Assembly: GCF_900109575.1 (NCBI RefSeq) | Contig: NZ_FOAF01000001.1 | Location: 1,149,662 to 1,213,661 of the forward strand | Reading direction: 5' to 3' | Source: Olivibacter domesticus | Lineage (GTDB): Bacteria > Bacteroidota > Bacteroidia > Sphingobacteriales > Sphingobacteriaceae | Length of the DNA: 64,000 bases | Shown here: in pieces, positions 4,621 through 61,989 of the stretch | Layout of the letters: each line of letters starts with the position of its first letter | Numbering within the stretch: position 1 is the first letter of the stretch | Translations under genes and position numbers: made by a program | Notes under the pieces: model-generated | The model's database searches: none | Told to the model about the DNA's origin: nothing | Seen by the model: the letters and a program-made list of their open reading frames with translations, nothing else

Positions 4621-6249
4621 TCATCTAGTCGTCTTGTTAGCATTTTCGACCTGCACATATTTTTTACTATAATGCACATTCATTAGATCGTAACGTTTTA
4701 ACTGTTCATTTAAACGCTTTAAAAAGTCGGTATAGTTTCGCTGACTTTTTGGCGTCCATAACATTTCACTCAATGCATCTAAACGTGGAAAGAGCATATA
4801 CTCCGCTTTAGCAGGGTTGGCTACGTATTCGCTCCAGAGGTTCCCTTGTGCGCCCCATATATAGGCAGCAGCCTCTTGGTTCAAGGATTCCGGTACCGGA
4901 TCATAACGATATACATCCTCGAGTGGCAAATACCTCGCAGCAGTTAAAGAATCGTCTTTAGCAAATTGAGCATGATTAAAATATAAAAATTTTTCCGGCG
5001 TCATGATTACCTTATGCCCCTGTCGCGCGGCAGCGATCCCACCGCTTTCCCCTCGCCAGCTCATGACCACCGCGTTAGGTGCCAACCCTCCTTCCAAAAT
5101 TTCATCCCAGCCAATAATTGTTTTGCCTTTACTGTTTACAAATTTCTCAATGCGCTGTATAAAATAGCTTTGCAGCTCCTTCATGTCCTTCAAACCTTTC
5201 TTTTTAATGAAGTTTTGACAAAAAGCAGATTTACTCCACCAAATCTTCGAGCATTCATCACCACCTATGTGAATGTAAGAGGAAGGAAAAAGATCCATAA
5301 CCTCTGTCAAGACATTCTCCAGAAAACGAAAGGCACTGTCAGAAGGTACCAGTACATTGTTAAATTTGTTAAAAATACCCCATGTTTGCGCTACCTGCTT
5401 AGGTTGATTAGGGGTGGTGCTGAATTCGGGGTATGCCGCTAATACGGCGATATTGTGACCGGGCATTTCAATTTCCGGGATAATGGTTATATAACGTTCA
5501 CTCGCATAGCGGATAACCTCTTTAATCTCTTCCTGCGTATAATATCCACCATAGCGTTTGCCATCGTTGCCGGTACCCGGATATAAGCCTATAATCGTTC
5601 CGTTACGCCATGCACCTATTTCAGTTAACCTTGGATACTTTTTGATTTCGATACGCCAGCCATGATCATCTGTTAAGTGCCAGTGAAAATAATTCATCTT
5701 ATGCAAAGCCAGGTAGTCAATGTATTTTTTCACGAAAGAAACATCAAAAAAATGCCTACTTACATCTAGGTGCATACCCCGGTAAGCAAAGCGTGGATAG
5801 TCCAAAATATCTACTGCTGGTATGAGTAAGTTAACGCTTTGTTGAACGGGCAATAGCTGAATCAATGTTTGTACACCCTGAAAAACACCTTCCGGATTAG
5901 CTGCTCGGATATACACTTCTTCTTTTGAAGAGGTTAACTGATAACCCTTAAGGTCTTTAAAGATCATGGAATCAGCAGCCAAATGCAACCCATCACCATA
6001 TAAAGCAGTACTATCACTTGTGATGGGTAAGGTAAAACCATATAACTTTTGTAGATATTCATTTAAAAAATCTGCAATATGCCTTAATGCGGGATTGTTA
6101 AGGTAGATTGTCGTTTTCTCGCTTAATTGAAATGGAGCTTCCGTTAGATGCTGCTTAACCTGAACAGGTTGAGGTATAATGGCCGGTGTTTGCGCTTTTG
6201 CGAAAAGTAAAAAAGAGATAGCAAAGATTACGGTGACCAGTTTTTTCAT
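4621..6249 (-). CDS. Beta-N-acetylhexosaminidase, GH20, secreted
   Basis: A 542-residue exo-hexosaminidase with a signal peptide (residues 1-19, LLFAKAQ). Residues about 22-150 form the GH20b accessory domain (PAIIPQPVQVKQ). The catalytic TIM barrel follows (YRGMHLDVSRHFF, HWHLTDDHGWRIEIKKYP, IIPEIEMPGH). The catalytic Asp-Glu pair sits in IHIGGDECSK at about residues 331-332, and the late tryptophans (WGAQGNLWSEYV) line the sugar pocket. The enzyme removes terminal GlcNAc/GalNAc with substrate-assisted catalysis, probably in the periplasm. It stands alone: 158 nt separate it from the GH39 gene upstream on the same strand, so the two may or may not be one transcript. Confidence 0.95.
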   Translation of the reverse strand: MKKLVTVIFAISFLLFAKAQTPAIIPQPVQVKQHLTEAPFQLSEKTTIYLNNPALRHIADFLNEYLQKLYGFTLPITSDSTALYGDGLHLAADSMIFKDLKGYQLTSSKEEVYIRAANPEGVFQGVQTLIQLLPVQQSVNLLIPAVDILDYPRFAYRGMHLDVSRHFFDVSFVKKYIDYLALHKMNYFHWHLTDDHGWRIEIKKYPRLTEIGAWRNGTIIGLYPGTGNDGKRYGGYYTQEEIKEVIRYASERYITIIPEIEMPGHNIAVLAAYPEFSTTPNQPKQVAQTWGIFNKFNNVLVPSDSAFRFLENVLTEVMDLFPSSYIHIGGDECSKIWWSKSAFCQNFIKKKGLKDMKELQSYFIQRIEKFVNSKGKTIIGWDEILEGGLAPNAVVMSWRGESGGIAAARQGHKVIMTPEKFLYFNHAQFAKDDSLTAARYLPLEDVYRYDPVPESLNQEAAAYIWGAQGNLWSEYVANPAKAEYMLFPRLDALSEMLWTPKSQRNYTDFLKRLNEQLKRYDLMNVHYSKKYVQVENANKTTR

Positions 6250-11285: not shown

Positions 11286-11545
11286 AATTTCTCTTAATGA
11301 TAATACAAATAGATTTAGTGTCTGTTGATATAAAGAAAGCGATTGTTTACGCTTTTGCAAAAAACATTACACCGAATGGCAATCTCCTTACACCAAACGG
11401 TCCTTACCGTTATTGAAGTTAACCCAGTGTAAATTCATCATGAAATACGGATAAAGCAAGTCTTGCCATCATGTTAACCTATATCGGTTCTTTTTGCATG
11501 GTTCTTCCCGAGATATTAAATAGGATAACAAAACCTAAGAATAAC

Positions 11546-14500
11546 TCACAGCCTCTTGCCAAACCAAAATCCCATACCAATCAATAATGCCATAACGCTT
11601 AACAACCAAAAGGCATACGGTTCTGACGAAGCATGTCGAGTCTTCTGATGCTGATCGCTTGCTTGCCTACTGCTTTCTTCCATTTTATATCCCTTCACCG
11701 TGGTAGGTTTTCCCCCCTCTCTTCCTGCGGCGGCTTTTTGCATAGGCGTTCCAGCATTTATCGGCCTCCTACTCGATCTCGTCCGACTTCCAGAAGCAGA
11801 TTTTTCCTTTCCGGCTACTACTTTCGCCGTATTATTCCTCGTGGCAGGTGCAGATGAGTTCTTATGGATGTTACCTAGCTGTGCTACCAGACTGTTCACC
11901 ATATCTTTTTCCGTATAGTTAGCCTTTTGCTGCACAAAATCCACCAATGCCTCATTTCCACATACATTATCAGCACAAGAAAGCCCCGTTTCTTCTGCCG
12001 TTTTCAGGTATTCGGCTACGAGCTGTTGCAAACGCCGCTCATCAGGCTTCCAGTAATCTTTCCTGACCACTTCCAGCATCCGTGCCAGCATCGTCTGGTA
12101 AGCATAAGGATTACCAGCTTCCCTAAATCGCTCTTTGATATCCAGCTCATATCGATCATTGACATAGGTATCCATCCAATCTTCCCATTTCTGCGCGTCA
12201 ATTGCCTCCGGCGTTGTTACCTGCCAGCCCCACATATTATCGGCTACCTGACCAATCATCCGTGCCCCGGCGTACCCTTCATTCAGCATCTTCTCAATCC
12301 ATTTAGGATTCAGGTAACGGGTATTCATTTCTCGTCCAATAAATTTGTCGAGTGATTCCTGCCGGGTATTCCCCGGATCAGTCAGATTGGTAATCATCAC
12401 ATCGGGCGACGTTCCATCCACATGGCGTACTGCCATCGCCATCCCACCCAATGCCTGAAAGAAGTCGTCATTATCCAAGGCCCCATACACATTGGTGGAG
12501 CGGCTATGAACAACCGCTTTGGTACCAGATAGTGCCTTTTGAAAAAGTGATACCGCTAAATCCTTTGCCGTCTCCGGAAGTGCACCTTCCGGCATATTCC
12601 CCCAAAGACCTTGCCCATAGAGGTGACTCATCCGGTTAAAGTAAACGGCACCAACCTCCTGGTCTTTTTCCCATTTATCGGAAGCCTGCACCACATCGTT
12701 CAAGCCATTGCCATAACTTCCACTCTCCGTACTGAACAGGCGTACGCTCGCCAACTGACGGGCCAAGGTGGTATCACTTATTCCGTCAGACAAGAGTTTC
12801 TCCATACTTTCATCGATATGCTCCCGCAAATAGTTAACACCTTTTTGCTTATATGCCATTGAAACGGCCTTGTCCAGCAACAGCATTAGGTTAGGAAACA
12901 TATCACGGTATAAGCCCGAAGGTGTGATCACCACATCGATGCGCGGTCGTCTAAGAGCCGTATCCGCAATGGCCGCTACCCCTTTTAAACGGCCGAAACC
13001 ATCGTAAGTAGGTTTTATTCCCAATAAACTTAACATTTGTGATTCCATAATGCCTTCATGTCGAATGGTTTCTACCGACCATAAATTAAACCCCACCTTA
13101 TCCGGATACTGTCCCTTGTGCCTACTACGGTAATCATCAATCAGCTGATTGGCGAGCTTCTCCCCTTCCCGATATGTGTCGATGGTTGGAATTCGATCAG
13201 GGTCAAAAGAATAAAAATTCTTTCCCGTGGGGAGTGCCGAAGGATTCCGGATAGGATCATTGCCCGAGCCCGCCTCCACATACTTTCCATTAAGAGCCGT
13301 CATCAACGCATCCAGCTCCCGCTCGCCACTGATCATGATACGTTCGTATACATCCCTTAGCAGCACGGCAAGCGAGTCCTTCGGCAGATCCTTCATCCTT
13401 CCAACAATAGCCTCAGCCGTTTTCATCGCCATGACCGAATCTGGCGACTGCCCAAACGTATGCATCCCCATGGGTGTAAGTGTTTCCTGAACCTCCTGAA
13501 GGTAATGTTCCACCCGCTGTACATCCGCTACTTTAATATCGCCATCCACCTGTAAGTCTTTCAATATATTCGCTTGTCTGGCCAATCGATTTATCGTACG
13601 CAAATGAACAGCAGCCAATGCCTCACTTTTACCAGTGGCCACATCATAGTCATTAATCGCTCCTGCAAGCGCACGCAGCTCCGGTCTTAAAGCCGCCTGA
13701 TCAAAAGGTGGGGTGAGGTGATCAATAATCACGGCCATTCCACGCCTTTTAGCCTGTGTTCCCTCTCCTACATTGTCCATGATATACGGATAAATATTCA
13801 CCAGGTCGCCAATCAATGCCTCCGGTGCATCGTCATCATCAAAACCAACCTCCCTTCCCGAAAGCCATTCATGCGTTCCGTGCGTACCTAAGTGTATCAG
13901 CGCATCGGCCGGCATGCCTTTTTGCAGGTACAGATAAAAAGCAATATATTGGTGATGAGGCGGCAGCGATACGTCATGGTACAGCGCCTCCGCATTTTCC
14001 TCCCAACCTCTGGCTGGTTGAGGCATCAAGTTAACCTTTCCATAAGCAACCTTGGGCAAGACGAAATAACGTTTTCCTGCCGCATCACGCCATGTCATGA
14101 TTGTCGCCTCCTCCGGTTCGCCCCATTTTTTTACCACCTGTTGCCGAAAGGCAGGATGCAATTGACTAAACCATTTCTTATACCTCTCCACCGAAATCAA
14201 TACCGGATGTGTTTCCCGCACCAATCTATCCAGTTCTGCCGGTGCCCAAGTGCCAATATTACGGCCTCCGTTCATTACATCAGCAAACACGGTGGCGGAA
14301 TCAGGAACCTGCCCACCAAGGTCATATCCAGCTGCTCCCATACGGGTTAAAATGTTTGTCATACTTCTCGGCAAAACGTTCAGGTAACTGGCGCCAATAT
14401 TGTTCTTTCCCGGATGACCATTATAATAGATGAGGACAATTTTTTTCTCCGAATTAGTTTGGCTTTGCAATCTTGACCAAGCCTTAACACGTCCCACCAC

Positions 14501-50386: not shown

Positions 50387-51484
50387 TTAAAAAACCAATT
50401 CATACCTAACAGACCTGCCGGCACCAATTTGATTCAAGATCCCTATAGCGTGCAAGTGTTGTAAATCTCGGGTGGCAGTTGCTTTAGAAGTTTTAGCTAT
50501 CGCCATGAACTTTTTAGCTGTCATCCCGCCTTCAAAGCCCTCCAATCCATTTTCGAGCATTCGTTTAATCACCTTTAATTCCCGCTCATTAAGGAGGGCA
50601 GTAAACCGATCAAAAAATTTGGCCTTTTTTACGGTGAACTCCACCAACTCTCTTGCATTTCGTTGTGCTTCTACTATAACCTCGGTAAAATAATGAATCC
50701 ATGCTGTTAAATCTAAGCCCGACTGCGCCTGTTTTAGTGCCTCGTAATATTGCTTTTTGTCTTTTTCAATGGTTTTGGATATAGACAGCAAAACAGGGCT
50801 CTGAAGTGTATTGGAGAGTGTATATTCAGCCAAAGCTCTTCCAACACGTCCATTTCCGTCTTCAAAGGGATGGATAGACTCAAAATAAACATGGGCAACT
50901 GCGGCCTTTAATAAAGCCTGCATAATGTTGTCTTTTACGTCAAAACGATCGTGATGAAACCAGTCTATAAACTGCTCCATCTCTTTGGGCATTTGAGAAG
51001 ATGGGGGTGCCTCGTAATGGATAATCTCTTTGCCATATGCGCCCGAGACAACCTGCATTGGCTCTTCACCCCTACGCCATTCACCTCCACTAATTTTTGG
51101 AAAACCCTCCACTAAAAGCCGATGCCAACGCTGTATCATATTGAGTGACAATTTGTCCGCAGCATCTGTTCTAACAGTGGTCATCAATTTAGCTATCCCA
51201 GTAACTCGCTTATCGCGAACAGGGGTGTCATCATCTAATCCTAAATTTCTCTTGATAGAAGACATGACATCTTCACGGCTCATATACTCCCCTTCAATTT
51301 CAGATGTTTTGATAGCTTCTGCTATAAGAACTTCTACCAGGGCCTCTTGCTTCAACTCATCATTCAAGCCCGTTATCAGGCCGCCTATCAATCCAAGCTC
51401 CCTTGCAAATACGATGCTAGTAGCGGATAGATCTGCTATCGAATAAGTGAAATTGGGCCAATCTTTATATTGCCAGTTGTACAT
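50387..51484 (-). CDS. fic: Fic-family AMP-transferase with N-terminal inhibitory helix
   Basis: A 365-residue protein. The inhibitory motif TSEIEGEY (S/T-xxx-E-G type) lies near residue 60, N-terminal to the Fic core, which makes it a class II Fic protein. The Fic motif HPFEDGNGRVGR begins near residue 205 with the catalytic His. The C-terminal part (MTAKKFMAIAKTSKATATRDLQHLHAIGILNQIGAGRSVRYEL) is a winged helix that could bind DNA. Fic enzymes modify hydroxyl side chains of targets with AMP, and in some cases act as toxins or self-regulators. Two palindromic operators lie directly upstream, fitting autoregulation through the winged helix. Confidence 0.9.
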   Translation of the reverse strand: MYNWQYKDWPNFTYSIADLSATSIVFARELGLIGGLITGLNDELKQEALVEVLIAEAIKTSEIEGEYMSREDVMSSIKRNLGLDDDTPVRDKRVTGIAKLMTTVRTDAADKLSLNMIQRWHRLLVEGFPKISGGEWRRGEEPMQVVSGAYGKEIIHYEAPPSSQMPKEMEQFIDWFHHDRFDVKDNIMQALLKAAVAHVYFESIHPFEDGNGRVGRALAEYTLSNTLQSPVLLSISKTIEKDKKQYYEALKQAQSGLDLTAWIHYFTEVIVEAQRNARELVEFTVKKAKFFDRFTALLNERELKVIKRMLENGLEGFEGGMTAKKFMAIAKTSKATATRDLQHLHAIGILNQIGAGRSVRYELVF

Positions 51485-51486
51485 AA

Positions 51487-51559
51487 TGAGCCGATTAGTA
51501 TAATTAATCGGCTCAAATATAACATTTTTTTGAGCCGATTAAAAGAAATAATCGGCTCA
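51487..51559 (-). promoter_or_regulatory. Twin operator upstream of fic
   Basis: TGAGCCGATTA-N7-TAATCGGCTCA occurs twice: 51487-51497/51505-51515 and 51531-51541/51549-51559. Arms are 11 bp and identical, both spacers are 7 nt, and the centres are 44 bp apart (about four helical turns). The -7-like box TATATTTG (51514-51521) lies at the edge of the first copy, and the start codon is 3 nt beyond it, so a bound repressor would block transcription and translation signals. Confidence 0.75.
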
Positions 51560-51611
51560 TGTTCCCAATAAAGCGGCTTAAGTACACCAATCAAAAACAA
51601 TCCTATTTTCT

Positions 51612-54338
51612 TCATATAATTTCTACTTTCAGCGATTCCGTCGGTTTTAAAACAAGAGTAGTTTTCAAGCGAATCAACATCTTATTGTTTAACTGCTCCG
51701 CCTTTAATGCGATTTTTTTACCGTTGTGGTGAACAATAACTTGCCTTTCCTCGCCAGCATTCAACAGTTCAAAGGATAAGGACGAAAGCGTTAATTCTCC
51801 ATAAGCTAAGCTAATTGTATGACGTTGTTGCCCGTTGTTTTTTTGCTGTGAATAGGTGCCCCAACCCTCCGCAGCGGTAAAGGCAGCACGAAAATCCTCC
51901 GGTTTAACCTTAGGGGCAAAACCGATATGCCCTTTCGGGCCATGATATTCATAACCACATGCGCTGATAAAAGTACCGTAACTAGCCATCGCCCGCGCGT
52001 AGTGGTCACTGCATTCTATCTCATTAAACGGATTTCTTTTAGCGGCATGGTAACGATCATGTATTACCCGCGTCAGTATCAAACTTTCGTCTATCATCCC
52101 TTCAGCCATCATATGGGCCGCTACCTGATGTTCAAAACCGCTCATACATTCGTGGAAATAGCCCAATTGCCAAGTTACATTCTCTCCATAAGGTTTCGGT
52201 TCATTCTTCGGGTTCGTATTCATCACCATCCCACCCTCACCTGCAAGAGCATAAGGCCTTCCACCAACATGCGTTTTGATATAGGGGCCTACATCCATGG
52301 CAAAATTGTATTTCCACAACGCTTTTAAAGCCGAAAGCGTTTTATCCCGATCCAATACCCGTGGCAGTCCCACCTGAAAAGCCCAGCTTTGTCCATATAC
52401 CTGATCAATGTGGCACGTATTATAAGAGCCTAGCTTCTTTCTACCCTGCACTGAATCTGGCCGATGAATAAAGTATTCCCCGTTATAAAGCTGCTCTTCC
52501 ATGTTTTTACGACCTTTTGTCACATATTCCGAACAAACTTTAGCGAAAGCTTTATCTCCTACCTCATTCGCCATCTCCTCCGCTGCGCGGGCCGCAGCAA
52601 CACAAAGCCCTACAATCCAAGCAATTTCACCCTCCCATACGGCATCCAAGGTATTTTCCATCGGTGTATCAATCATACCATCCCCATTTTTATCCTGTGC
52701 CAACATAAATTGCACGGCCTTTTTTATACCGAACCAATTGGTTTTTAAGAACTGGTCATCACTACTCATCTGATGTTCCCGGTAAAAACGCAAAATCGTA
52801 CCGGCCTGCCCGTCGATCGCTGGATGGGTTTGATTTTCTCCACGAAAAAGGATCACACCGCTATCTTGCTTAAAGCCTACACCCAGATCCACCCGCTGCC
52901 GAAGATCACGTTCCAATTCCGGAAATATACGAGCAACTGCCTGCGCATACTGCCAAACATGGGTACAAGTGCCCGGGCAGGCTCCTACACCTTCCCACCC
53001 CCAAAAACGGCCACTTGCAAAACGATAGGTATTCGCCGTTGCCAAGGTACCGATATTCACAAAGGTACGGTCCAAAAACCAATGCGGTAAAGAACTGTCA
53101 TTCCAGGTCTGCTGCCACAGTTCCGTATGGGTGGTTAGATAATCCCACTTCGATGCGATGTATTGGTTTACCTCCCATGCATCTTTAAATTTCGTTGCAT
53201 ACCAATAACCCGCCTGCGCATCCTTTACCAACTCCTTCAATTTCGGATGCAGATTATTAAAATGCCAGGAAATGGAATAATCCGCTTTAAAGCTCTTTCC
53301 AGCTTCAATAGCACTGCCCAATAAGATCGCTCCTACTAACTTCTCTCCTGCATCTTTTTCTATTTGTGCAGCGCCTTGTTCAAGCTTGTTAAAACTTTCA
53401 CTGCTGACCGGCCACGGTGAAAAATCGGCAATACAATAGGCGTCCTGTGTATGGCAAGCTAAACACATCGTACCCGCATCCTGTGCAGAGGCAAGAGCCT
53501 TGTCCGTACTGCTAAAATCAAATAACAAAGCCTTTCCCCTCTCCAGATCATTCACCTTACTTCGCTTCTTTCCCTTGCCTTTTTCGGCAGTAAACCTATT
53601 CGCTCCGTTTTCCATCCATCCAACAATGGACATTTCCAGATCCTCATTCACTAGATTTTTGATTTCCAGACGCAGAATAGTGGCGGGTAAGGAAGAACTC
53701 TCAGTATCTAAAGGAATAAAAGGAGCATAAGCTGTGAATTGCACTTCCACAGGAAATTCCGACGTTTTATAGGTGATCAAGGATATTGGATAAGAAGGTT
53801 GAAAGATCACCTCCTCCCAATGATCGGCTTTCAATTCCTTTATAAAAGTTTCTCCCTTATAAATAACTTTAATAGCGAAACCCTGATCCAGCACTCTTTT
53901 ATTCTCAGCAATAGCCGGTTCAACATAAGCAGATCCATCTCGCGATCGTATCTCACGCACCGAAGTGCCGTCATCCCAGCGCACCGTTTTCGGGTCAATC
54001 CCTTCATGACACGGCTCGATCGTTTGGTTATATATCTGCCAAAGCCATAAGCGCCCATCCCCACCGATATAGACGGTTCCGCTGTGCAGTCCGCCAACAG
54101 GCATACCGATATAATTCAGCTCGTTTCGACTTTTCAAATAGCTAATCGGCGTCCCTCGCACTCTTAGGCCCCGCAACCAGTTCGCATCGATATTTTTATC
54201 AACAGGGATGTTATGTTTCGGATAATCCTGGGCAAAAGTACTCGCTGCCCACGTGGGGAATCGAGTCGCTAGTAAACCGAATCCAATAAGTACTGATTGC
54301 TTTAAAAATCTTCGTCGCTGCATTTTATTATTCATCAT
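51612..54338 (-). CDS. GH116-family glycosidase, Tat-exported
   Basis: A 908-residue protein of the GBA2-like glycosidase family GH116. The N-terminus MQRRRFLKQSVLIGFGLLAT is a twin-arginine signal. The N-terminal beta-sandwich domain (LNYIGMPVGGLHSGTVYIGGDG, residues about 70-330) and a C-terminal alpha/alpha barrel (YRFASGRFWGWEGVGACPGTCTHVWQY; DGMIDTPMENTLDAVWEGE; YGQSWAFQVGLPRVL) follow, as in GH116. Family members hydrolyse beta-glucosides or related beta-linked sugars. It starts about 30 nt after the relic at 54369, and no SusC/D remains nearby on this strand, although one scar suggests it was once in a PUL. Confidence 0.9.
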   Translation of the reverse strand: MMNNKMQRRRFLKQSVLIGFGLLATRFPTWAASTFAQDYPKHNIPVDKNIDANWLRGLRVRGTPISYLKSRNELNYIGMPVGGLHSGTVYIGGDGRLWLWQIYNQTIEPCHEGIDPKTVRWDDGTSVREIRSRDGSAYVEPAIAENKRVLDQGFAIKVIYKGETFIKELKADHWEEVIFQPSYPISLITYKTSEFPVEVQFTAYAPFIPLDTESSSLPATILRLEIKNLVNEDLEMSIVGWMENGANRFTAEKGKGKKRSKVNDLERGKALLFDFSSTDKALASAQDAGTMCLACHTQDAYCIADFSPWPVSSESFNKLEQGAAQIEKDAGEKLVGAILLGSAIEAGKSFKADYSISWHFNNLHPKLKELVKDAQAGYWYATKFKDAWEVNQYIASKWDYLTTHTELWQQTWNDSSLPHWFLDRTFVNIGTLATANTYRFASGRFWGWEGVGACPGTCTHVWQYAQAVARIFPELERDLRQRVDLGVGFKQDSGVILFRGENQTHPAIDGQAGTILRFYREHQMSSDDQFLKTNWFGIKKAVQFMLAQDKNGDGMIDTPMENTLDAVWEGEIAWIVGLCVAAARAAEEMANEVGDKAFAKVCSEYVTKGRKNMEEQLYNGEYFIHRPDSVQGRKKLGSYNTCHIDQVYGQSWAFQVGLPRVLDRDKTLSALKALWKYNFAMDVGPYIKTHVGGRPYALAGEGGMVMNTNPKNEPKPYGENVTWQLGYFHECMSGFEHQVAAHMMAEGMIDESLILTRVIHDRYHAAKRNPFNEIECSDHYARAMASYGTFISACGYEYHGPKGHIGFAPKVKPEDFRAAFTAAEGWGTYSQQKNNGQQRHTISLAYGELTLSSLSFELLNAGEERQVIVHHNGKKIALKAEQLNNKMLIRLKTTLVLKPTESLKVEII

Positions 54339-54368
54339 AGTCCATCAACAATTAAATTTTGAAAATTC

Positions 54369-54551
54369 CTACCAGCCCGGATTCTGTATCACGTCTTGCA
54401 GACCTTCCTCATCCTGTATAAACTTTAAGCTATATCTGTACAAGGCGTCGAAACTATTATTATAAATTACCGTAAAGGCTGATTGGCTACCTCTGATGAA
54501 AGCGGGCCAGTGAGTGGCAATTAGATTATAAGTAGCTTGGTTCGTATTCAT
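54369..54551 (-). pseudogene. Deletion scar: ECF sigma N-terminus joined to a SusD C-terminus
   Basis: The 60-residue frame begins like an ECF sigma factor (WPAFIRGSQSAFTVIYNNSF; ALYRYSLKFIQDEEGLQDVIQ) and ends NPGW-stop, the usual last residues of SusD proteins. An intact ECF protein is about 190 residues. The natural order in such loci is ECF, FecR, SusC, SusD, then enzyme genes, and the GH116 gene follows here by about 30 nt. A single deletion removing FecR, SusC and most of SusD explains the chimera. The joining point lies near 54378-54385. Confidence 0.65.
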
Positions 54552-55137
54552 ACAATGACATTATACCATCGCCCCTCATTACAAATTTCAGCAAAAAAAA
54601 TTTCAATTATTAGGCAACTATTGGGTTACACATAGTTACTAAAGGGAATAAACATCTCATTCAACAATATTAGCATTGTTGGCAACTATATTCACTAATT
54701 TATGCAATCGATTGATCAGTGGAGGTTAAGATGTAGGCGGCACGCATGCATGACCGGCCTCATGGAATGAGCGTCAAAAGATTCAGAAAAGTGGAGGATA
54801 GAAAATCATGTGAAGAAGCGAAGCGTTGGCCATCGCGCTGAGCGGCTACACAGGATTGAGCGTTCAGACCTGAATCTTTAGCGAAAGCCATAAAGCCTTG
54901 ATGTTTTGGTTCTTTCACATCCAAGGTAAAAGAACAACTAATTATCAAGAATAAAGAACAATTAACGCTAAGCATTCCTTCAGGTTTTGCAATGCCATTC
55001 TGTGCTCAAATAAAATCTATAGATTTTATAGATTAACAAAATATCCCTATATTTGGTCGGCGAATGGAATAAAGAAATAGGAAAAAACAATCTTCTTCTA
55101 CTGATGATGATCGTACCTAGCCAGTGTAAAAGATTTC
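54552..55137 (+). other. Long intergenic region without a gene
   Basis: No plausible coding frame. The stretch 54770-54950 has a less AT-rich, palindrome-like texture, including GTTCTTT (54909-54915) / AAAGAAC (54929-54935), of the type seen in repetitive extragenic elements. The region also holds the promoter of the ECF sigma gene at its 3' end. Confidence 0.4.
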
Positions 55138-55167
55138 TTGCGTGACGTGGAAAATCTACTATATTTG
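55138..55167 (+). promoter_or_regulatory. Promoter of the ECF sigma operon (TTG-N19-TATATTTG)
   Basis: TTG (55138-55140) and TATATTTG (55160-55167) are 19 nt apart, fitting the Bacteroidota consensus. Transcription would begin near 55173, about 32 nt before the ATG. Confidence 0.65.
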
Positions 55168-55204
55168 TTTCTAAACCAAAATAAATCTCAATAATTTACA
55201 TTTT

Positions 55205-55774
55205 ATGCCTGAATATAGGTTGTACACCGACGAGCAGCTTTTTCATGAGGTTAGTGCAGGAGATCATCAGGCATATAAAGAATTATATGAACGGTATTGG
55301 GAGGTACTTTGGCTTTACGTTTCTGGAACCACCCATCCAGATGATGCGAAGGATATTATACAAGACGTTTTTATTTCTATCTGGCAAAAAAGAGAAAATT
55401 TACAGCTAAAACGCTCGTTCCGCGCCTACCTGTATAGAGCGACCCTGAATAAGATAATCGACCATTCATCTCGCGCAAAATATGCCCATCATTATATCGA
55501 CACCCTTGCTAAAAACTATCAGGAAGGCCATAATACAATAGATGATCTCTTATTTGAAAAAGAGTTGATCCAACGCTTTGAAGCATGCCTTGAAAAAATG
55601 CCACCTAAAATGCGTACCATATTTCAGTTTAGCCGCGAGGACATGCTGAGCCACCAGGAAATTAGCGAACGCTTAGATATTTCACGTGATAATGTAAATA
55701 GACAGATCAAAAATGCGCTCATACGCTTAAAAAAATCCCTCTTATTACTTTTTTTATTTTTTTTCTTACCCTAA
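55205..55774 (+). CDS. ECF-type RNA polymerase sigma factor
   Basis: A 189-residue sigma factor. Region 2 (EVSAGDHQAYKELYERYW to DIIQDVFISIWQKRENLQL, about residues 15-80) and region 4 (MPPKMRTIFQFSREDMLSHQEISERLDISRDNVNRQIKNALIRLKKSL, about 133-182) are both complete. It directs transcription of the downstream SusC/D locus when the SusC STN domain signals through FecR. The FecR gene lies 52 nt downstream. Confidence 0.95.
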   Translation: MPEYRLYTDEQLFHEVSAGDHQAYKELYERYWEVLWLYVSGTTHPDDAKDIIQDVFISIWQKRENLQLKRSFRAYLYRATLNKIIDHSSRAKYAHHYIDTLAKNYQEGHNTIDDLLFEKELIQRFEACLEKMPPKMRTIFQFSREDMLSHQEISERLDISRDNVNRQIKNALIRLKKSLLLLFLFFFLP

Positions 55775-55826
55775 AGACTCATCCATCCGTCTTTGTAGAA
55801 AAGGGGAACCTAAACAATTATGCACC

Positions 55827-56930
55827 ATGACGAAGGACGAACTAGCCGAGCTCCTCAAGCGCTATCAGCAGGGTATGTGTACAGCAGCAGAAAAGCGCTT
55901 GATAGAGCGTCTTCATCTATACAGCCATGATCCCAAAGCCGCACCAAGTGATGACCTTGTGAAAGACGAGATTTGGCAAAACATTGAAGCGCACACCACC
56001 GGGCAAAAAAGAAAAAACCATCGTCCTGTTTATAGTGCCGCTGCAGCCATCATGTTACTCATCGGCGTTTATTTCCTATATCATTACATGAGGCCTTCTC
56101 CCACCCCTTCTGCCAAGCAACATATGGTAGTAGACATACCTGCTGGCGGCAATAGAGCTACTTTGAAGCTAAGCAACGGAAAAAGAATAACATTAGACAG
56201 CCTAAATGCCGGCATCAAGATGCACGCCAGCGCAGTAAGTTACTTAAACGGAGTACCCGTTCCAGGTCAGCGTACAAACGATGATTTATCATTATCCACT
56301 TTTCATGAGCTCGAAACACCTAAAGGTGGTCAGTACCAGTTAATGCTAGCAGACGGCACCAAAGTATGGTTAAATGCGGCCTCATCCATTCGTTTTCCCA
56401 GTAGCTTTTCCAACGATCTAAGAGAAGTGACGATCAGCGGCGAAGTTTATTTTGAAATCGCCCAGGATAAAAACCGTCCATTCCGGGTTAAGACAAAAAA
56501 TCAACACATACAAGTACTGGGCACAAGTTTCAATGTGCAAGCCTATCCGGATGAAGCCGTGGAGCATACCACCCTAGTTTCCGGAAAAATTAAAATAGAG
56601 CGAGAAGGGTTCTCAGAAATCATCTATCCCGGTCATCGCGCATCCATCGCCACTGAAGGTGTTACCATCAGCGAAGTAGACACAGACGAAACAACTGCTT
56701 GGAGATCAGGATTTATCTCTTTCAACGAACAAACTTTAGCAGACATTATGCAGCAAATCAGCCGTTGGTATAACGTTCGTATAAGCTATGAACAGGTCGA
56801 TCCCTCCTTACGTTTCGGGGGCCGAGTATCTCGCTATGCTAACGTTTCTGAGGTTTTGCGGAGATTAGAATTAACGGAACAAGTTCGTTTTAAAATTGAT
56901 GAAAGGAGGATTGTTGTGATGAAATACTAA
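55827..56930 (+). CDS. FecR-family anti-sigma factor
   Basis: A 367-residue inner-membrane protein. Residues about 1-65 are the cytoplasmic sigma-binding domain (LLKRYQQGMCTAAEKRLIERLH), a membrane helix follows (AAAAIMLLIGVYFLYHYM, about 71-88), and the periplasmic FecR domain includes TPKGGQYQLMLADGTKVWLNAAS and FEIAQDKNRPFRVKTKNQHIQVLGTSFNVQAY. The C-terminal part (DIMQQISRWYNVRISYE) resembles an STN domain and contacts the SusC STN. It is the partner of the ECF factor just upstream. Confidence 0.95.
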   Translation: MTKDELAELLKRYQQGMCTAAEKRLIERLHLYSHDPKAAPSDDLVKDEIWQNIEAHTTGQKRKNHRPVYSAAAAIMLLIGVYFLYHYMRPSPTPSAKQHMVVDIPAGGNRATLKLSNGKRITLDSLNAGIKMHASAVSYLNGVPVPGQRTNDDLSLSTFHELETPKGGQYQLMLADGTKVWLNAASSIRFPSSFSNDLREVTISGEVYFEIAQDKNRPFRVKTKNQHIQVLGTSFNVQAYPDEAVEHTTLVSGKIKIEREGFSEIIYPGHRASIATEGVTISEVDTDETTAWRSGFISFNEQTLADIMQQISRWYNVRISYEQVDPSLRFGGRVSRYANVSEVLRRLELTEQVRFKIDERRIVVMKY

Positions 56931-56954
56931 CCATAAAACCATTGGGAAATTAAA

Positions 56955-57113
56955 ATCCGGAGGTTGAAGCCCTCCGGATATGTCCCGACTTTTACATTTA
57001 ATTCATGTGGATCAACCTCCAGCGCTCAAACATGAAGGTTCTCCATCAGTCAAAACCTAGGCAAACTTAACGAACCTTGCCTGCTTATACAAATGTACAC
57101 AAAGCAGGTAAGG
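56955..57113 (+). promoter_or_regulatory. Two hairpins between FecR and SusC
   Basis: Hairpin one: ATCCGGAGG (56955-56963) / CCTCCGGAT (56971-56979), 9 bp, 7-nt loop. Hairpin two: CCTTGCCTGCTT (57075-57086) / AAGCAGGTAAGG (57102-57113), 11 of 12 pairs, 15-nt loop. Neither has a T run. They may attenuate the SusC transcript or protect it from decay, separating the low-level sigma/anti-sigma mRNA from the SusC/D mRNA. Confidence 0.4.
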
Positions 57114-57143
57114 TACGCGGTTATGCCGCAGAAATAATTATTG

Positions 57144-60100
57144 ATGCTTATTCATTTAAAAAGCTATTACAATCATAGCATGAGGGCTTACCTCGTAAAA
57201 ATATTGAAAATTATGAAATTAACGTGCCTGCTGTTGATGATTTTCATTTTCCAGTCGAACGCTGACACTTTGGCCCAGACCCTAACATTGAAAAAGGACA
57301 AAGCCACGCTAAGAGAAATTTTCAAAGATATTCAACACCAAACAGGTTACTCTGTTATTTACAATGTGCAATACATCAAAGATATACCACCTATTTCGGT
57401 TGCCTTTGATCAGGAGCCCCTGGCATCTGCTCTGCATAAAATACTGACAAACAGCGGTATTGGTTTTGTTATTGTCAATAAAGAAATTGTTATTAAAACC
57501 AAAAAACCTACGGCATCAGCAGTAAACAGTTTAGCGGTGCAGCCAAGCCTTAGTGGTGGCATCTACGACGGCGACGGGAAGCCCCTTGTAGGTGCCGCGG
57601 TTCAAGTTATCGGAACCCCGCAAGGCACCAGTACAGACCAGAACGGGCACTTCTTGCTCAAAAATGTTCCCAGTACAAGCACCTTGCGTATATCCCATAT
57701 AGGGTATGAAAGCCTCGAAATAAAAGCCACGGCAGATTTAGGACATATCGTACTGAAGATGAGCGATGCCAAATTAGAAGAGGTAGTGGTAATCGGTTAT
57801 GGCTCTCTGCGCAAAAGTGATGTTACCGGTTCCGTTGTCTCCCTCAGTCCGAAAGACCTGAACACCGTCAACAGCATTTCTGCAGATCAGCTATTGCAAG
57901 GACGCGCGCCCGGTGTCCAGATTACGCAAAGTAGCCATGCGCCCGGCGGCGGTAGTACCATCCGGATTCGAGGTATCGGCTCTATCAATGCCGGAAACGA
58001 ACCCTTATATGTGATTGATGGTGTCCCGATAGACAACCGTGCAACGGCCAATAGTAAAGGGTCTAGCTCCTTTAGCGGTGATATGCCACCAGCCAATCCA
58101 TTGAACATTGTCAATGCCGCCGATATTGCTTCGATCGAAATATTAAAAGATGCATCAGCAACAGCCATTTATGGCTCTAGAGGTGCTAATGGTGTTATTT
58201 TGATTACCACCAAAACAGGTGGCGGTGCTTTTATGGCCAATTTCAACAGCAACTATGGCCTCACCCAGATCGCCCGAAAAATGGATGTGCTTTCTACAAA
58301 AGATTATATTCAGGTAATGAATGACCTCGCCCGGGATCGTGGAGAAAAGCCAGTCTTTGATCAGGATTTTATAACATCGGTTGGCAAAGGAACAGATTGG
58401 CAAAAAGCCTTATTTAAAAATGGCCATAACGAAAACCATAATCTTTCCCTATCTGGCGGTGTAGGAAAATCAAACTATTATTCGTCATTAGGTTATACCA
58501 ATCAGGTGGGGATCATCCCCAACACCAAATACCAGCGTTTACAGGGGCGTTTAAACTTTGAACATACCGTTAGCGATAAATTTAAATTCGGCTTTAACGT
58601 AAATACCTCCCAGGAAAACAACTATTCCGTTCCAGTCAACGGCTTTTCCATCAACCAGGATGCTGATGCTATTAATAGCGCACTCAATACACCGCCCATA
58701 TTTCCCATTTATTATCCAGACGGCACTTTCTATCGGCCAGAGAGCGGCGAGCCCGTATCCGTTACCCTTGATAATCCGCTGGCTATTGTAGAAGGACAAA
58801 AGGCAACAGACCGTATTAATAGAACTTTAGCCAATTTTTTTGGCGAATACGAGCTCATTCCGGGTTTGAAAGCACGCTTAAATATTGGCTCTGATAGGTC
58901 GAACAAAAGGCGTGATTTATACCTCAGCCGCATCTCACAAGTTGGAAATGCCGTAGATGGGAGCGCATCCGTACAGTCAGGCGACCTGAACAATATCCTG
59001 GTAGAGGCATTATTAAAATATAACAGAACTATCCGCGAGAAGCATAGCCTAAACGTCCTTGCCGGCGCCACCGTACAACAATTTGATGAGCGCACCGTAG
59101 GGGTCGGTACGAAAGGTTTTGCTTCGGACGTCATTGGTAGCGACAACCTCGGTCTGGGCACTATTGAGTTCAATACCGCGGGCAGCTATTTTGGTCGCAG
59201 ACGCCTGTTGTCGTACCTCGGCCGGGTAAATTATGGTTACCAAAACAAATACCTCTTCACCGGAACCATTCGTGCCGATGGATCATCCAATTTCGGCATC
59301 AACAACCGCTTTGGTATATTCCCTTCCTTCTCTGCTGCCTGGAACCTAAGCGAAGAAGATTTCTTAAAACAAGCACCTACCGTTTCCTCGCTAAAGCTGC
59401 GCGTGGGATGGGGCCAGATCGGGAATGACGATATCGGTATAGGCACCGGTTTAACAACCTACTCCGGCAGCGGCAATGTCGTGCTGGGGGGCGCCCTTCA
59501 AACCGCCATATCCCCCGCCCGCATCCCCAACCCCAATCTAAAATGGGAAACCAGTCAGCAAACCAACATAGGTTTAGACTTCGGCTTCTGGGGTAGCCGG
59601 CTTAGTGGAAGTATAGACTATTTTATAAAAACCAACAAAGACCTGTTGTTCAACCTCCCCATTCCGAGCTCATCAGGCTTTGCTGTTTACACCGAAAACA
59701 TCGGAAAAATCAGTAATAAGGGTATCGAACTGTACCTCAGCTCAGAAAACCTGACCGGAAATTTCAACTGGCGCAGCACCTTCAATGTAACAAAAATCAC
59801 CAATAAAGTAGATGACTTAGGTGGTATCAGCGAATATGTACCTTCAAATGAGCCCACCACCTTGGTTAGGCCCGGTGAAGCCCTCTTTTCCTATTTCGGC
59901 TACCGGTCTGTCGGCATCTTCCAAACAGCAGCAGAAGCAAGCGCTTCCGCCCAACCAAATGCTAAACCCGGCGATCCAAAATGGGACGACGTCAATGGCG
60001 ATGGGGTAATCAATGAACGCGACCGCGTGGTGCTAGGCAACCCCTATCCCGATGTCACATTAGGCTTAAGCAATGATTTCAGTTATAAAAACTTTGCATT

Positions 60101-60542
60101 AACCATCTTTTTTGAAGGAGCCTTTGGTGCCGACCTTTTCCATTGGCAAACGGTAGATGCGCTCTATGCAAACGACCCCTATCGAAACCGCATGGCCACC
60201 CCACTATTAAACCGATGGACGCCAGAAAACCCTGGAAATACTTGGCCATCCGGCGTATCCATCGCACAGTTGCAATATTCCAAAACAAACAGCTACACCA
60301 TTCTTGATGCTTCTTATATCCGCCTAAAGAACGTGCAGCTCTCTTACCAGATTCCTATAAAAAACACCAAAACAATAAAAGGCCTACGCGTTTCCTTATC
60401 CGGCCAGAACCTGGCACTAATTACCGACTATCCCGGTTTTGACCCCGATGTTAACGCCACCGGTACCGGAAACATTCGCTATGATCGGAATGCCTATCCA
60501 GCCTCCAGAACCTATATGCTGGGTTTAAACCTCAACTTTTAA
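57144..60542 (+). CDS. SusC-like outer-membrane transporter with STN signalling domain
   Basis: A protein of about 1132 residues. ATGs at 57144, 57180 and 57213 are possible starts; the signal peptide is MKLTCLLLMIFIFQSNADTL. The STN domain (TLKKDKATLREIFKDIQHQTGYSVIY, about 45-115) contacts FecR, the CarboxypepD_reg domain follows (SGGIYDGDGKPLVGAAVQVIG), then VVIGYGSLRKSDVTGSVVSL, plug (IRIRGIGSINAGNEPLYVIDGVPI) and barrel ending RTYMLGLNLNF. This is a transporter that also senses its sugar and triggers the ECF factor upstream. It forms an operon with SusD and the sulfatase. Confidence 0.95.
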   Translation: MLIHLKSYYNHSMRAYLVKILKIMKLTCLLLMIFIFQSNADTLAQTLTLKKDKATLREIFKDIQHQTGYSVIYNVQYIKDIPPISVAFDQEPLASALHKILTNSGIGFVIVNKEIVIKTKKPTASAVNSLAVQPSLSGGIYDGDGKPLVGAAVQVIGTPQGTSTDQNGHFLLKNVPSTSTLRISHIGYESLEIKATADLGHIVLKMSDAKLEEVVVIGYGSLRKSDVTGSVVSLSPKDLNTVNSISADQLLQGRAPGVQITQSSHAPGGGSTIRIRGIGSINAGNEPLYVIDGVPIDNRATANSKGSSSFSGDMPPANPLNIVNAADIASIEILKDASATAIYGSRGANGVILITTKTGGGAFMANFNSNYGLTQIARKMDVLSTKDYIQVMNDLARDRGEKPVFDQDFITSVGKGTDWQKALFKNGHNENHNLSLSGGVGKSNYYSSLGYTNQVGIIPNTKYQRLQGRLNFEHTVSDKFKFGFNVNTSQENNYSVPVNGFSINQDADAINSALNTPPIFPIYYPDGTFYRPESGEPVSVTLDNPLAIVEGQKATDRINRTLANFFGEYELIPGLKARLNIGSDRSNKRRDLYLSRISQVGNAVDGSASVQSGDLNNILVEALLKYNRTIREKHSLNVLAGATVQQFDERTVGVGTKGFASDVIGSDNLGLGTIEFNTAGSYFGRRRLLSYLGRVNYGYQNKYLFTGTIRADGSSNFGINNRFGIFPSFSAAWNLSEEDFLKQAPTVSSLKLRVGWGQIGNDDIGIGTGLTTYSGSGNVVLGGALQTAISPARIPNPNLKWETSQQTNIGLDFGFWGSRLSGSIDYFIKTNKDLLFNLPIPSSSGFAVYTENIGKISNKGIELYLSSENLTGNFNWRSTFNVTKITNKVDDLGGISEYVPSNEPTTLVRPGEALFSYFGYRSVGIFQTAAEASASAQPNAKPGDPKWDDVNGDGVINERDRVVLGNPYPDVTLGLSNDFSYKNFALTIFFEGAFGADLFHWQTVDALYANDPYRNRMATPLLNRWTPENPGNTWPSGVSIAQLQYSKTNSYTILDASYIRLKNVQLSYQIPIKNTKTIKGLRVSLSGQNLALITDYPGFDPDVNATGTGNIRYDRNAYPASRTYMLGLNLNF

Positions 60543-60561
60543 TTAAGATAAAAAGCTCCTC

Positions 60562-61989
60562 ATGAATACATTATATAAAATATCCCTCGCTTTCCTGTTC
60601 AGCTGCCTACTTAGTAGCTGTGCCGAACAATTCCTGGATGTCGAGCCAGGCTCTCAATATTCATCCGAATTTCTGGAAACCAAAGAAGGGGTGGAAGCCA
60701 TCACCAACTCTGCCTATCAAAATATCCTGTTAACAGGTGATGCCGGCGTAAACCGCATTTATGTAGAAGAATCCTGTACGGATGTATTGGTTAACTTCAG
60801 AGGATTATTAAACGGTAATCTTCAGCCTTTTATGGACTTCACTTGGTCTGCCTCGCAAATCTATTTACAAGATTTCTGGCGAAGCAATTACCGGGCTATC
60901 CGAGATGCCAATTTGCTACTGGAGGCGATTCCCAACCACCCACAATTGGATGAGGCAACAAAAACTCAGTTAAGCGGTGAGATGCACTTTATACGAGGTT
61001 TTGCCTATGCCTATTTATACGGATGGTTTGGTAGCGTACCGCTGGTGAACCAGCAGGACGATTTGTTTCTGCCGCGCGCCTCCGAGGCCGACATCCGCAC
61101 ACAGATTGAAAGTGATTTAACAACAGCAGCAGAAAACCTAGGTACAAGCGCTCCCCTATACGGACGGGCCACCAAAGGCGCCGCCTTAGGCCTGCTGGCG
61201 CAGTACTATTTACAAACCCGCCAGTGGGAAAAAGCCAGCGATGCCGCACAGCAGGTTATCGATCTTCAGCAATATGAGCTATGGCCCGACGTGCGCAGCC
61301 TCTTTGCATTGGCCAACGAAGGCAATAAAGAAATGATTTATGCGGCACCGGCTCTGGCCTTATCGGGTTATGGCAATGTCTGGATTGCCAATGCCTTACC
61401 TCCCGGGTACCCCACTGATGTAATGAATACCGCCACCCAGGTATGTTTACCCGTCGCCTTTTACAACTCTTTTGCCACCGATGATCAGCGCAAGGCACTG
61501 ATACTTACCCAATACACCAATAATAAGGGTGCCGTGATTGATTTGACCACTGGCGTGGAATACCAGAACCCACGGAGCTTCAAATATCCTCTTGATCCAG
61601 CACAGATTGAACGGCACGGTGGCATGGATTTTCCTATTTTGCGCTATGCGGAGATTCTATTGATCAAAGCAGAAGCAGATGTGATGGCGGGCCGAAGCAT
61701 CGCCGACGCCCTTCCCTATCTTAACCAAGTGCACACCCGGGCCGGTTTAGCACCCTATACCAGTTCAGCAGCTTCAGATCAGGCGCGCTTTATAGCCTTG
61801 GTATTAGACGAGCGCAAATGGGAGTTTTTCAGCGAAGGTAGAAGAAGACAGGACCTGTTGCGGCACGATCAATTTTTACAGAACGCAACCGATCGCGGCA
61901 AAAGCCCGCAAGCATTTAGACAATTGTTTCCCATCCCACAAAGCGAGATGGATGCCAACCCTCAACTGGTTCAAAATGAAGGTTATTAA
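60562..61989 (+). CDS. SusD-like surface glycan-binding lipoprotein (sulfatase PUL)
   Basis: A 475-residue SusD-like protein with a lipobox (CLLSSC, Cys near residue 20), then AEQFLDVEPGSQYSSEFLET. TPR-like helices follow (YRAIRDANLLLEAI; QLSGEMHFIRGFAYAYLYGWFG), and the C-terminal FFSEGRRRQDLLRHDQF and IPQSEMDANPQLVQNEGY complete the fold. It is 19 nt after SusC and 28 nt before the sulfatase. Confidence 0.94.
   Translation: MNTLYKISLAFLFSCLLSSCAEQFLDVEPGSQYSSEFLETKEGVEAITNSAYQNILLTGDAGVNRIYVEESCTDVLVNFRGLLNGNLQPFMDFTWSASQIYLQDFWRSNYRAIRDANLLLEAIPNHPQLDEATKTQLSGEMHFIRGFAYAYLYGWFGSVPLVNQQDDLFLPRASEADIRTQIESDLTTAAENLGTSAPLYGRATKGAALGLLAQYYLQTRQWEKASDAAQQVIDLQQYELWPDVRSLFALANEGNKEMIYAAPALALSGYGNVWIANALPPGYPTDVMNTATQVCLPVAFYNSFATDDQRKALILTQYTNNKGAVIDLTTGVEYQNPRSFKYPLDPAQIERHGGMDFPILRYAEILLIKAEADVMAGRSIADALPYLNQVHTRAGLAPYTSSAASDQARFIALVLDERKWEFFSEGRRRQDLLRHDQFLQNATDRGKSPQAFRQLFPIPQSEMDANPQLVQNEGY

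Follow-up and report, generated by a model that had tools for sequence, protein, structure and literature searches.

A 60-codon open reading frame upstream of an orphaned GH116 gene in Olivibacter domesticus is very probably the remnant of a lost ECF-FecR-SusC-SusD core

The window, a 64,000-nucleotide stretch of the Olivibacter domesticus genome, carries a 60-codon open reading frame (ORF) on its minus strand (MNTNQ...DVIQNPGW-stop), followed shortly by a GH116 glycoside hydrolase gene (Table 1) that encodes 908 aa with the Pfam domains DUF608 and Glyco_hydr_116N. Upstream of the ORF, and in the opposite direction, lies a complete and separate ECF-FecR-SusC-SusD cluster, then a sulfatase-like gene (a label read from the sequence, not from a search). 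In 36 of 62 loci, GH116 is followed at a distance of up to about 1 kb by an RbsD/FucU-like gene. The window is without it, and a Fic/DOC gene with an upstream palindromic stretch occupies its place. This Fic/DOC unit (1176 bp) is 89–90% identical in two congeners (L185 and L186) and has different surroundings each time, as if it moved as a cassette. A stretch beside the Fic gene also has a 71% match over 107 nt in another genome (L041:13489-13595), close downstream of a GH116 gene.

Table 1. Features of the locus, with positions in the window
Feature	Position	Strand	Remarks
Chimeric 60-codon ORF (probable scar)	54369..54551	-	ATG start, TAG stop
ECF sigma-factor-derived half, residues 1–57	54381..54551	-	N-terminal stretch and first part of region 2, ending ...DVIQN
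Likely junction ACAGAAT (last base of ATA, then CAG AAT)	54381..54387	-	Would belong to both parents
SusD-derived 3' end, QNPGW-stop	54369..54387	-	17/19 nt identical to the L081 SusD end
30-nt spacer from ORF stop to GH116 start	54339..54368	-	Same place as the SusD-GH116 spacer of intact loci
GH116 glycoside hydrolase gene	51612..54338	-	Complete open frame, orphaned; Pfam and residue alignment
Intergenic region	54552..55204	.	FecR, SusC, SusD and remaining ECF: no convincing remnant (all E>0.05)
Neighbouring ECF-FecR-SusC-SusD PUL	55205..61989	+	Separate cluster
Fic/DOC gene	50387..51562	-	

The original prediction read the ORF as the start of an ECF sigma factor, up to region 2, joined to a SusD-type end. 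Its first part is borne out by residues 13–57, which match ECF genes of the same genome (best E 1.6e-5). Among the matches listed in a search of 399 genomes of the family, with up to 16 candidates scored in each, the best relatives reach E of about 8e-10 per genome. Matches at E<=1e-6 occur in 8 genomes, that of the window included, and the best three from other genomes are ECF genes of G252, G351 and G376. Those of G252 and G376 adjoin the FecR gene of a GH116 locus, and that of G351, 99.5% identical to the G252 one, shares a contig with GH116 at a distance of 27 kb; none of the next four among the matches listed (G087, G178, G354 and G225) is beside GH116. The ECF protein of the G252 locus (L079) has 198 residues with the Pfam domains Sigma70_r2 and Sigma70_r4, its sigma region 2 spanning residues 26–92, and shares 40.8% identity with the ORF over 49 aa (tblastn, E 8e-11). 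The ECF part of the ORF ends at residue 57, the equivalent of about residue 53 of this protein; it resembles the start of an ECF factor with region 2, complete regions 2 and 4 being absent, and the 60-mer itself gives no Pfam match at E<=5. The closest-type ECF proteins, those of L079 and L076, read DVIQNVF and DVIHNVF. When their first 57 residues were searched against seven ECF loci fetched from the genome (of 52 places matching the L079 ECF at E<=1e-4) together with the window, the ORF was the best match both for L079 (42.1 versus 33.1 bits) and for L076 (36.8 versus 33.4 bits). At the sequence level, the ECF half thus resembles the L079/L076 type, with an identity of only about 40% to its nearest relatives, and it may once have belonged to the GH116 locus itself. 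By eye, there is a weak likeness some 30 nt before the start between TATATTTG in the ECF genes of L079 and L076 and GAAATTTG in the window; a scan with a promoter consensus did no better than on shuffled sequences (7 found versus a mean of 9.2 in shuffles). A second broken ECF gene, an 85-aa open frame, is present elsewhere in the genome (L006, on C10 around 1941983). It was considered as another ECF-SusD joint and rejected, as it reads as a frame-shifted ECF gene and not as a fusion.

The other half is far shorter (about 5 codons or about 19 nt), has no SusD_RagB domain (no Pfam hit) and consists of a C-terminal QN.GW-stop placed before an enzyme gene. In the loci examined, 16 of 28 SusD-classed ORFs over 400 aa end in QN[PKTA][GN]W, and a single one of 2531 non-SusD ORFs does so, namely the ORF of the window. 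This agrees with the predicted SusD-type end. None of about 2000 random 140-nt windows matched the L081 SusD end as well as the last 19 nt of the ORF do; with the three other reference tails (L079, L076 and L048), 55, 4 and 72 of about 2000 did so. On a DNA profile of SusD tails, built from the ten intact loci described below, the window scores 6.3 bits, which is within the range of the 555 control windows (maximum 11.3). Because of this score and of the weaker match to other tails, the case for the SusD half rests on motif, stop codon and position rather than on length. As for position, the SusD stops of intact loci lie 0 to 114 nt before GH116, and the QNPGW-stop of the window lies at that place. 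The ORF might be a broken ECF fragment whose stop comes after QNPGW by chance, as the SusD part is so short and its profile score alone is not significant, but the rarity of the motif on non-SusD ORFs and its location where SusD ends in intact loci leave this coincidence hardly credible. That the ORF encodes a functional small protein, e.g. a conserved mini-regulator or a leader peptide, is very improbable too: its frame is open and close to GH116, but its ECF part stops inside the equivalent of sigma region 2, it ends in SusD-like codons and, among the matches listed at E<=1e-6 in the 399 family genomes, the only full-length match is the window itself. The ORF is therefore not conserved as a unit across species in this set.

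Joining through short homology had also been proposed, at codons for VIQN. Short homology does exist in relatives: a 7-nt ACAAAAT is common to the L079 ECF codons and to the SusD tails of L079, L076, L053 and L054 (4 of the 10 tails tested, the other 6 sharing less with these ECF codons), and the window reads ACAGAAT there. The codons concerned are different, since the parental SusD family reads LPQN or IIQN; the shared codons are likely those of QN (7 nt, ACARAAT), with N belonging to both parents, and not those of VIQN.

If the ORF is a scar, its parental gene order is expected in relatives. GH116 was found by protein search in 60 of the 399 family genomes, its own included. Of the 60 matches other than that of the window, 59 were fetched together with up to 12 kb of upstream DNA. 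Two distant ones (32–35%) were left out, so that 57 loci remained, 7 of them with less than 8 kb upstream. FecR-SusC-SusD directly precedes GH116 in 10 of these 57 loci (L048, L053, L054, L063, L070, L072, L081, L079, L076 and L077), so GH116 is indeed the gene expected after SusD in an ECF-FecR-SusC-SusD-enzyme locus, and related PULs with the predicted order do exist. The SusC-SusD pairs of the ten constitute one orthologous set (53–83% identity for SusC and 57–86% for SusD, relative to L048), whereas SusC and SusD of other PULs, those of the window included, reach at most about 33% and 29% to this set over comparable lengths. Some loci have a different SusCD pair upstream of GH116 (e.g. L056, L064, L078 and L094). 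The ECF gene is beside the core in nine of the ten intact loci, on the same strand and ahead of FecR in seven (L048, L053, L054, L063, L070, L072 and L081) and on the opposite strand in two (L079 and L076); in L077 it is displaced, 27 kb away. In the same-strand loci, ECF starts 6.9–7.9 kb before GH116, compared with 213 nt for the remnant in the window. The relatives with this order are not close strains, as the best identity of the window GH116 to any relative is 67%, and no closely related strain with an intact locus was found. A class-level draw detected GH116 at E<=1e-150 in only 2 of 395 genomes, its own and G019, which was already in the set, and a scan of further genome contigs yielded 6 loci, two of which are copies of family loci.

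FecR does not form one orthologous set (L048 and L079 FecR share about 29% identity). Across the intact loci (L079, L048 and others), SusC-SusD-GH116 is orthologous between genera while the FecR and ECF regulators are of differing type, as if regulator modules had been exchanged while importer and enzyme stayed together.

The window thus resembles an ECF/anti-sigma (FecR)-regulated SusCD PUL in that its scar fuses both ends of the parental order seen in relatives, and differs from it in that FecR and SusC are absent, little is left of ECF and SusD, and only the enzyme is intact. The missing SusD and ECF were searched for in the whole genome, which is listed as 100% complete. The L079 SusD finds nothing above 37% identity there, compared with 57–86% within the lost SusD family; apart from the scar, the best long match of the L079 ECF is 32% (37% over 63 aa). 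The SusC-SusD pair that belongs to the enzyme is absent from the window, whose own pairs are unrelated to the parental pair. The enzyme is orphaned from its transporter, as predicted, and a move of the core to another place in the genome is unsupported for both SusD and the ECF type. The neighbouring PUL was also considered as the lost core in inverted position and was rejected, since it has a complete SusD and since its identity to the L048 proteins is only about 30% for SusC and 24% for SusD. For FecR, the identity to L048 is 40%, which is within the spread of FecR between loci.

Taken as a whole, the ORF is very probably what is left of an ECF-FecR-SusC-SusD core lost from in front of GH116, and its origin can be viewed as follows. 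In an ancestor with the order ECF-FecR-SusC-SusD-GH116, recombination would have occurred between short matches in the ECF gene (the DVIQN codons) and at the SusD end (the PQN codons). It would have taken out FecR, SusC, the remainder of ECF and almost the whole of SusD, about 6.7–7.7 kb judging from the loci with a same-strand ECF, and would have fused the ECF start in frame to the last SusD codons, the ORF being a dead junction. GH116 would have been spared with its own start and spacer and would now lie directly behind the former ECF start region, so that it is probably no longer expressed under the former sigma factor or together with a SusCD importer.

A single deletion of several kilobases, as originally predicted, is the simplest course for the window and a reasonably likely one, in line with the parental order in relatives and with a joint found in L083 (see below); it is unproven, as the nearest relatives of the ECF half lie on the strand opposite to GH116. 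L079-type ECF genes (L079 and L076) or their remnants (L083, L073, L075 and L074) are antisense to GH116, whereas the ECF half of the window is on the same strand. Since these nearest relatives are antisense to FecR-SusC-SusD-GH116, and since CARAAT is present in both parental genes in relatives, an inversion with subsequent loss is conceivable, if doubtful: starting from an antisense ECF, inverted short matches (VIQN codons in ECF and PQN codons in SusD) would have flipped the core and made the joint, and the flipped core would have been lost later. This requires a second loss that left no trace, as the genome has no ECF of this type above 37% (best long match 32%) and the intergenic region upstream of the ORF holds no remnant of FecR, SusC, SusD or the rest of ECF. 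Moreover, the importer of the reversed neighbouring PUL is unrelated, despite the similarity of its FecR, and cousins of the L079-type ECF are on the same strand as FecR-SusC-SusD in L114 and L117 (they are on the opposite strand in L116). A mechanism other than one deletion or inversion plus loss is unlikely. One such course, with an ECF half from another PUL beside which GH116 and the SusD tail were moved by translocation or transfer, would find a parallel in L080. It would also suit the four other genomes of the genus, in which no GH116 exceeds 36% identity at E<=1e-50, and the variation of both flanks of the locus between congeners. The best matches of the ECF half among those listed for the 399 genomes include regulators of GH116 loci, which makes a foreign regulator quite improbable. 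Sister species offer no empty site for comparison: the Fic gene has different surroundings in G001, G003 and G004, and in the four congeners nothing exceeds 46% identity to the SusC of the neighbouring PUL.

Two joints in relatives bear on the single deletion and on its limits. Over the left flank, L083 (G336) is collinear with L079 (G252) at 90–92% identity as far as position 4847 of L079. It then keeps L079 positions 5278–5376 (part of the antisense ECF), continues at 11367–11575 (SusD) and resumes at 11925 (SusD tail and GH116), the about 430 bp between 4847 and 5278 being missing as well. The ECF piece and SusD meet at a pair of nearly identical 15-nt direct repeats, which are 6.0 kb apart in the intact relative (TTGATAAAAACATTT at 5362 and TTGAAAAAAACATTT at 11367 of L079, 6005 bp apart, one mismatch). 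For the last jump, the corresponding L079 sequences are GCTAACTGGCCAATT at 11550 and TATTTGTGGCCAATTCC at 11919, both with TGGCCAATT. Deletion between short direct repeats leaves a scar of a generally known kind. Like such scars, the ORF of the window joins two genes in frame at a short stretch common to both (the L083 joint is comparable) and has an intact counterpart in relatives (the ten loci above, whose GH116 is at most 67% identical); it differs in that its lost DNA, and with it the orientation of the parental ECF gene, lies beyond view. The L083 joint is not clean. Its left flank is 90–94% identical to G252 and G351 while its GH116 part is only 78% identical to both, so exchange of the GH116 part may have been involved, and the L079 allele need not be the parent. 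Similarly, between G252 and G351 (L079 against L077 and L113), identity is 96% in the flank, 68% across FecR and the beginning of SusC, and 84% from the SusD gene to GH116. These contrasts between flank and core suggest that strains exchange the locus or that it changes more quickly than the DNA around it. In L080 (G177), an ECF start is joined, out of frame, to the last 22 SusD codons, and this ECF half is 92% identical to a G351 ECF gene that heads a different PUL on another contig. Since the L080 joint mixes two PULs, ECF-SusD joints alone are no proof of a deletion within a single locus.

The same core seems to have been lost from other loci. With the SusD-tail profile (best control 11.3 bits), clear remnants were found before GH116 in eight loci without a complete SusD of the orthologous set, at 32–69 bits (L093, 68.9; L075, 58.6; L080, 55.8; L073, 51.8; L090, 48.3; L082, 45.4; L083, 43.1; L084, 32.2). 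L071 has a short tail whose 8.0 bits are inside the control range; none of about 2000 random windows matches the tail of its neighbour L072 as well. The tails of L087 and L089 are borderline (score reached once each in about 2000 random windows), and those of L085 and L088 are not significant (reached by 142 and 145 of about 2000). When the 2.5 kb before GH116 were scanned in 18 loci, antisense remnants of an L079-type ECF appeared in L083, L073, L075 and L074 (E 6e-11 to 4e-7), the last of which has no detectable SusD tail. In L093, an unrelated SusC-SusD pair stands directly ahead of the old SusD remnant, which suggests that the lost importer was replaced.

In a GH116 tree (61 proteins, quick method, SH-aLRT support only), the ten remnant loci, with the window and L071 among them, are interleaved with the ten intact ones. 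Given the well-supported branches, each label (remnant or intact) must have changed at least 6 times; shuffled labels give similar numbers, so the count means only that the labels are scattered, and it could be inflated by GH116 transfer or core exchange. The GH116 of the window is sister, on a long branch and with a support of only 80, to a clade (g16) that would correspond to Sphingobacterium, since the loci of L079 (G252) and L077 (G351) recur in L044 (Sphingobacterium sp. GVS05A) and L046 (S. detergens).

The enzyme that outlived the core appears intact. Its best solved relative is ExoMA2 (PDB 8ic6/8ic7; E 5e-67, about 230 bits), the GH116 beta-glucosidases being at about 1e-16. ExoMA2 is a GH116 exo-beta-D-arabinofuranosidase for which the published study names Glu431, Asp557, His446 and Arg483 (PMC10509167). 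The nucleophile, the acid/base and two subsite residues align with E449, D565, H460 and R499 of the window (counted on the alignment, with a chain offset of 4), so the catalytic Glu and Asp are both present, together with both Pfam domains. Among the relatives and the window taken together, the WEG...GTCTHVW stretch is found in 57 of 61 proteins and the NT.D stretch in 55 of 61. On this basis, a D-arabinofuranoside substrate is a lead rather than a result.

A literature search of titles and abstracts, with most subscription journals outside its scope, found no description of ECF-to-SusD scars. PULs are usually read as units, the SusCD neighbours of an enzyme serving to infer its substrate; that PULs in general lose and reshuffle genes is familiar. 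As a deletion scar, the ORF of the window is of a known kind, and the repeated loss of the core is the interesting part: one enzyme outlives the same importer in several lineages, and readable junctions show how the unit comes apart. Conceivably, though this is unlikely, the core before GH116 has been excised repeatedly and in parallel since its loss is useful, the scars then being convergent regulatory rewiring and not plain decay. The enzyme would have been kept each time and freed from sigma-factor control, sometimes behind the regulator's own start region, and an inducible, importer-coupled enzyme would have become a stand-alone one. These loci warn against treating enzyme neighbourhoods as stable, and the set of ten intact loci, eight clear remnants, one short remnant and a few faint ones forms a natural experiment on whether the enzyme still has a role once its importer is lost.
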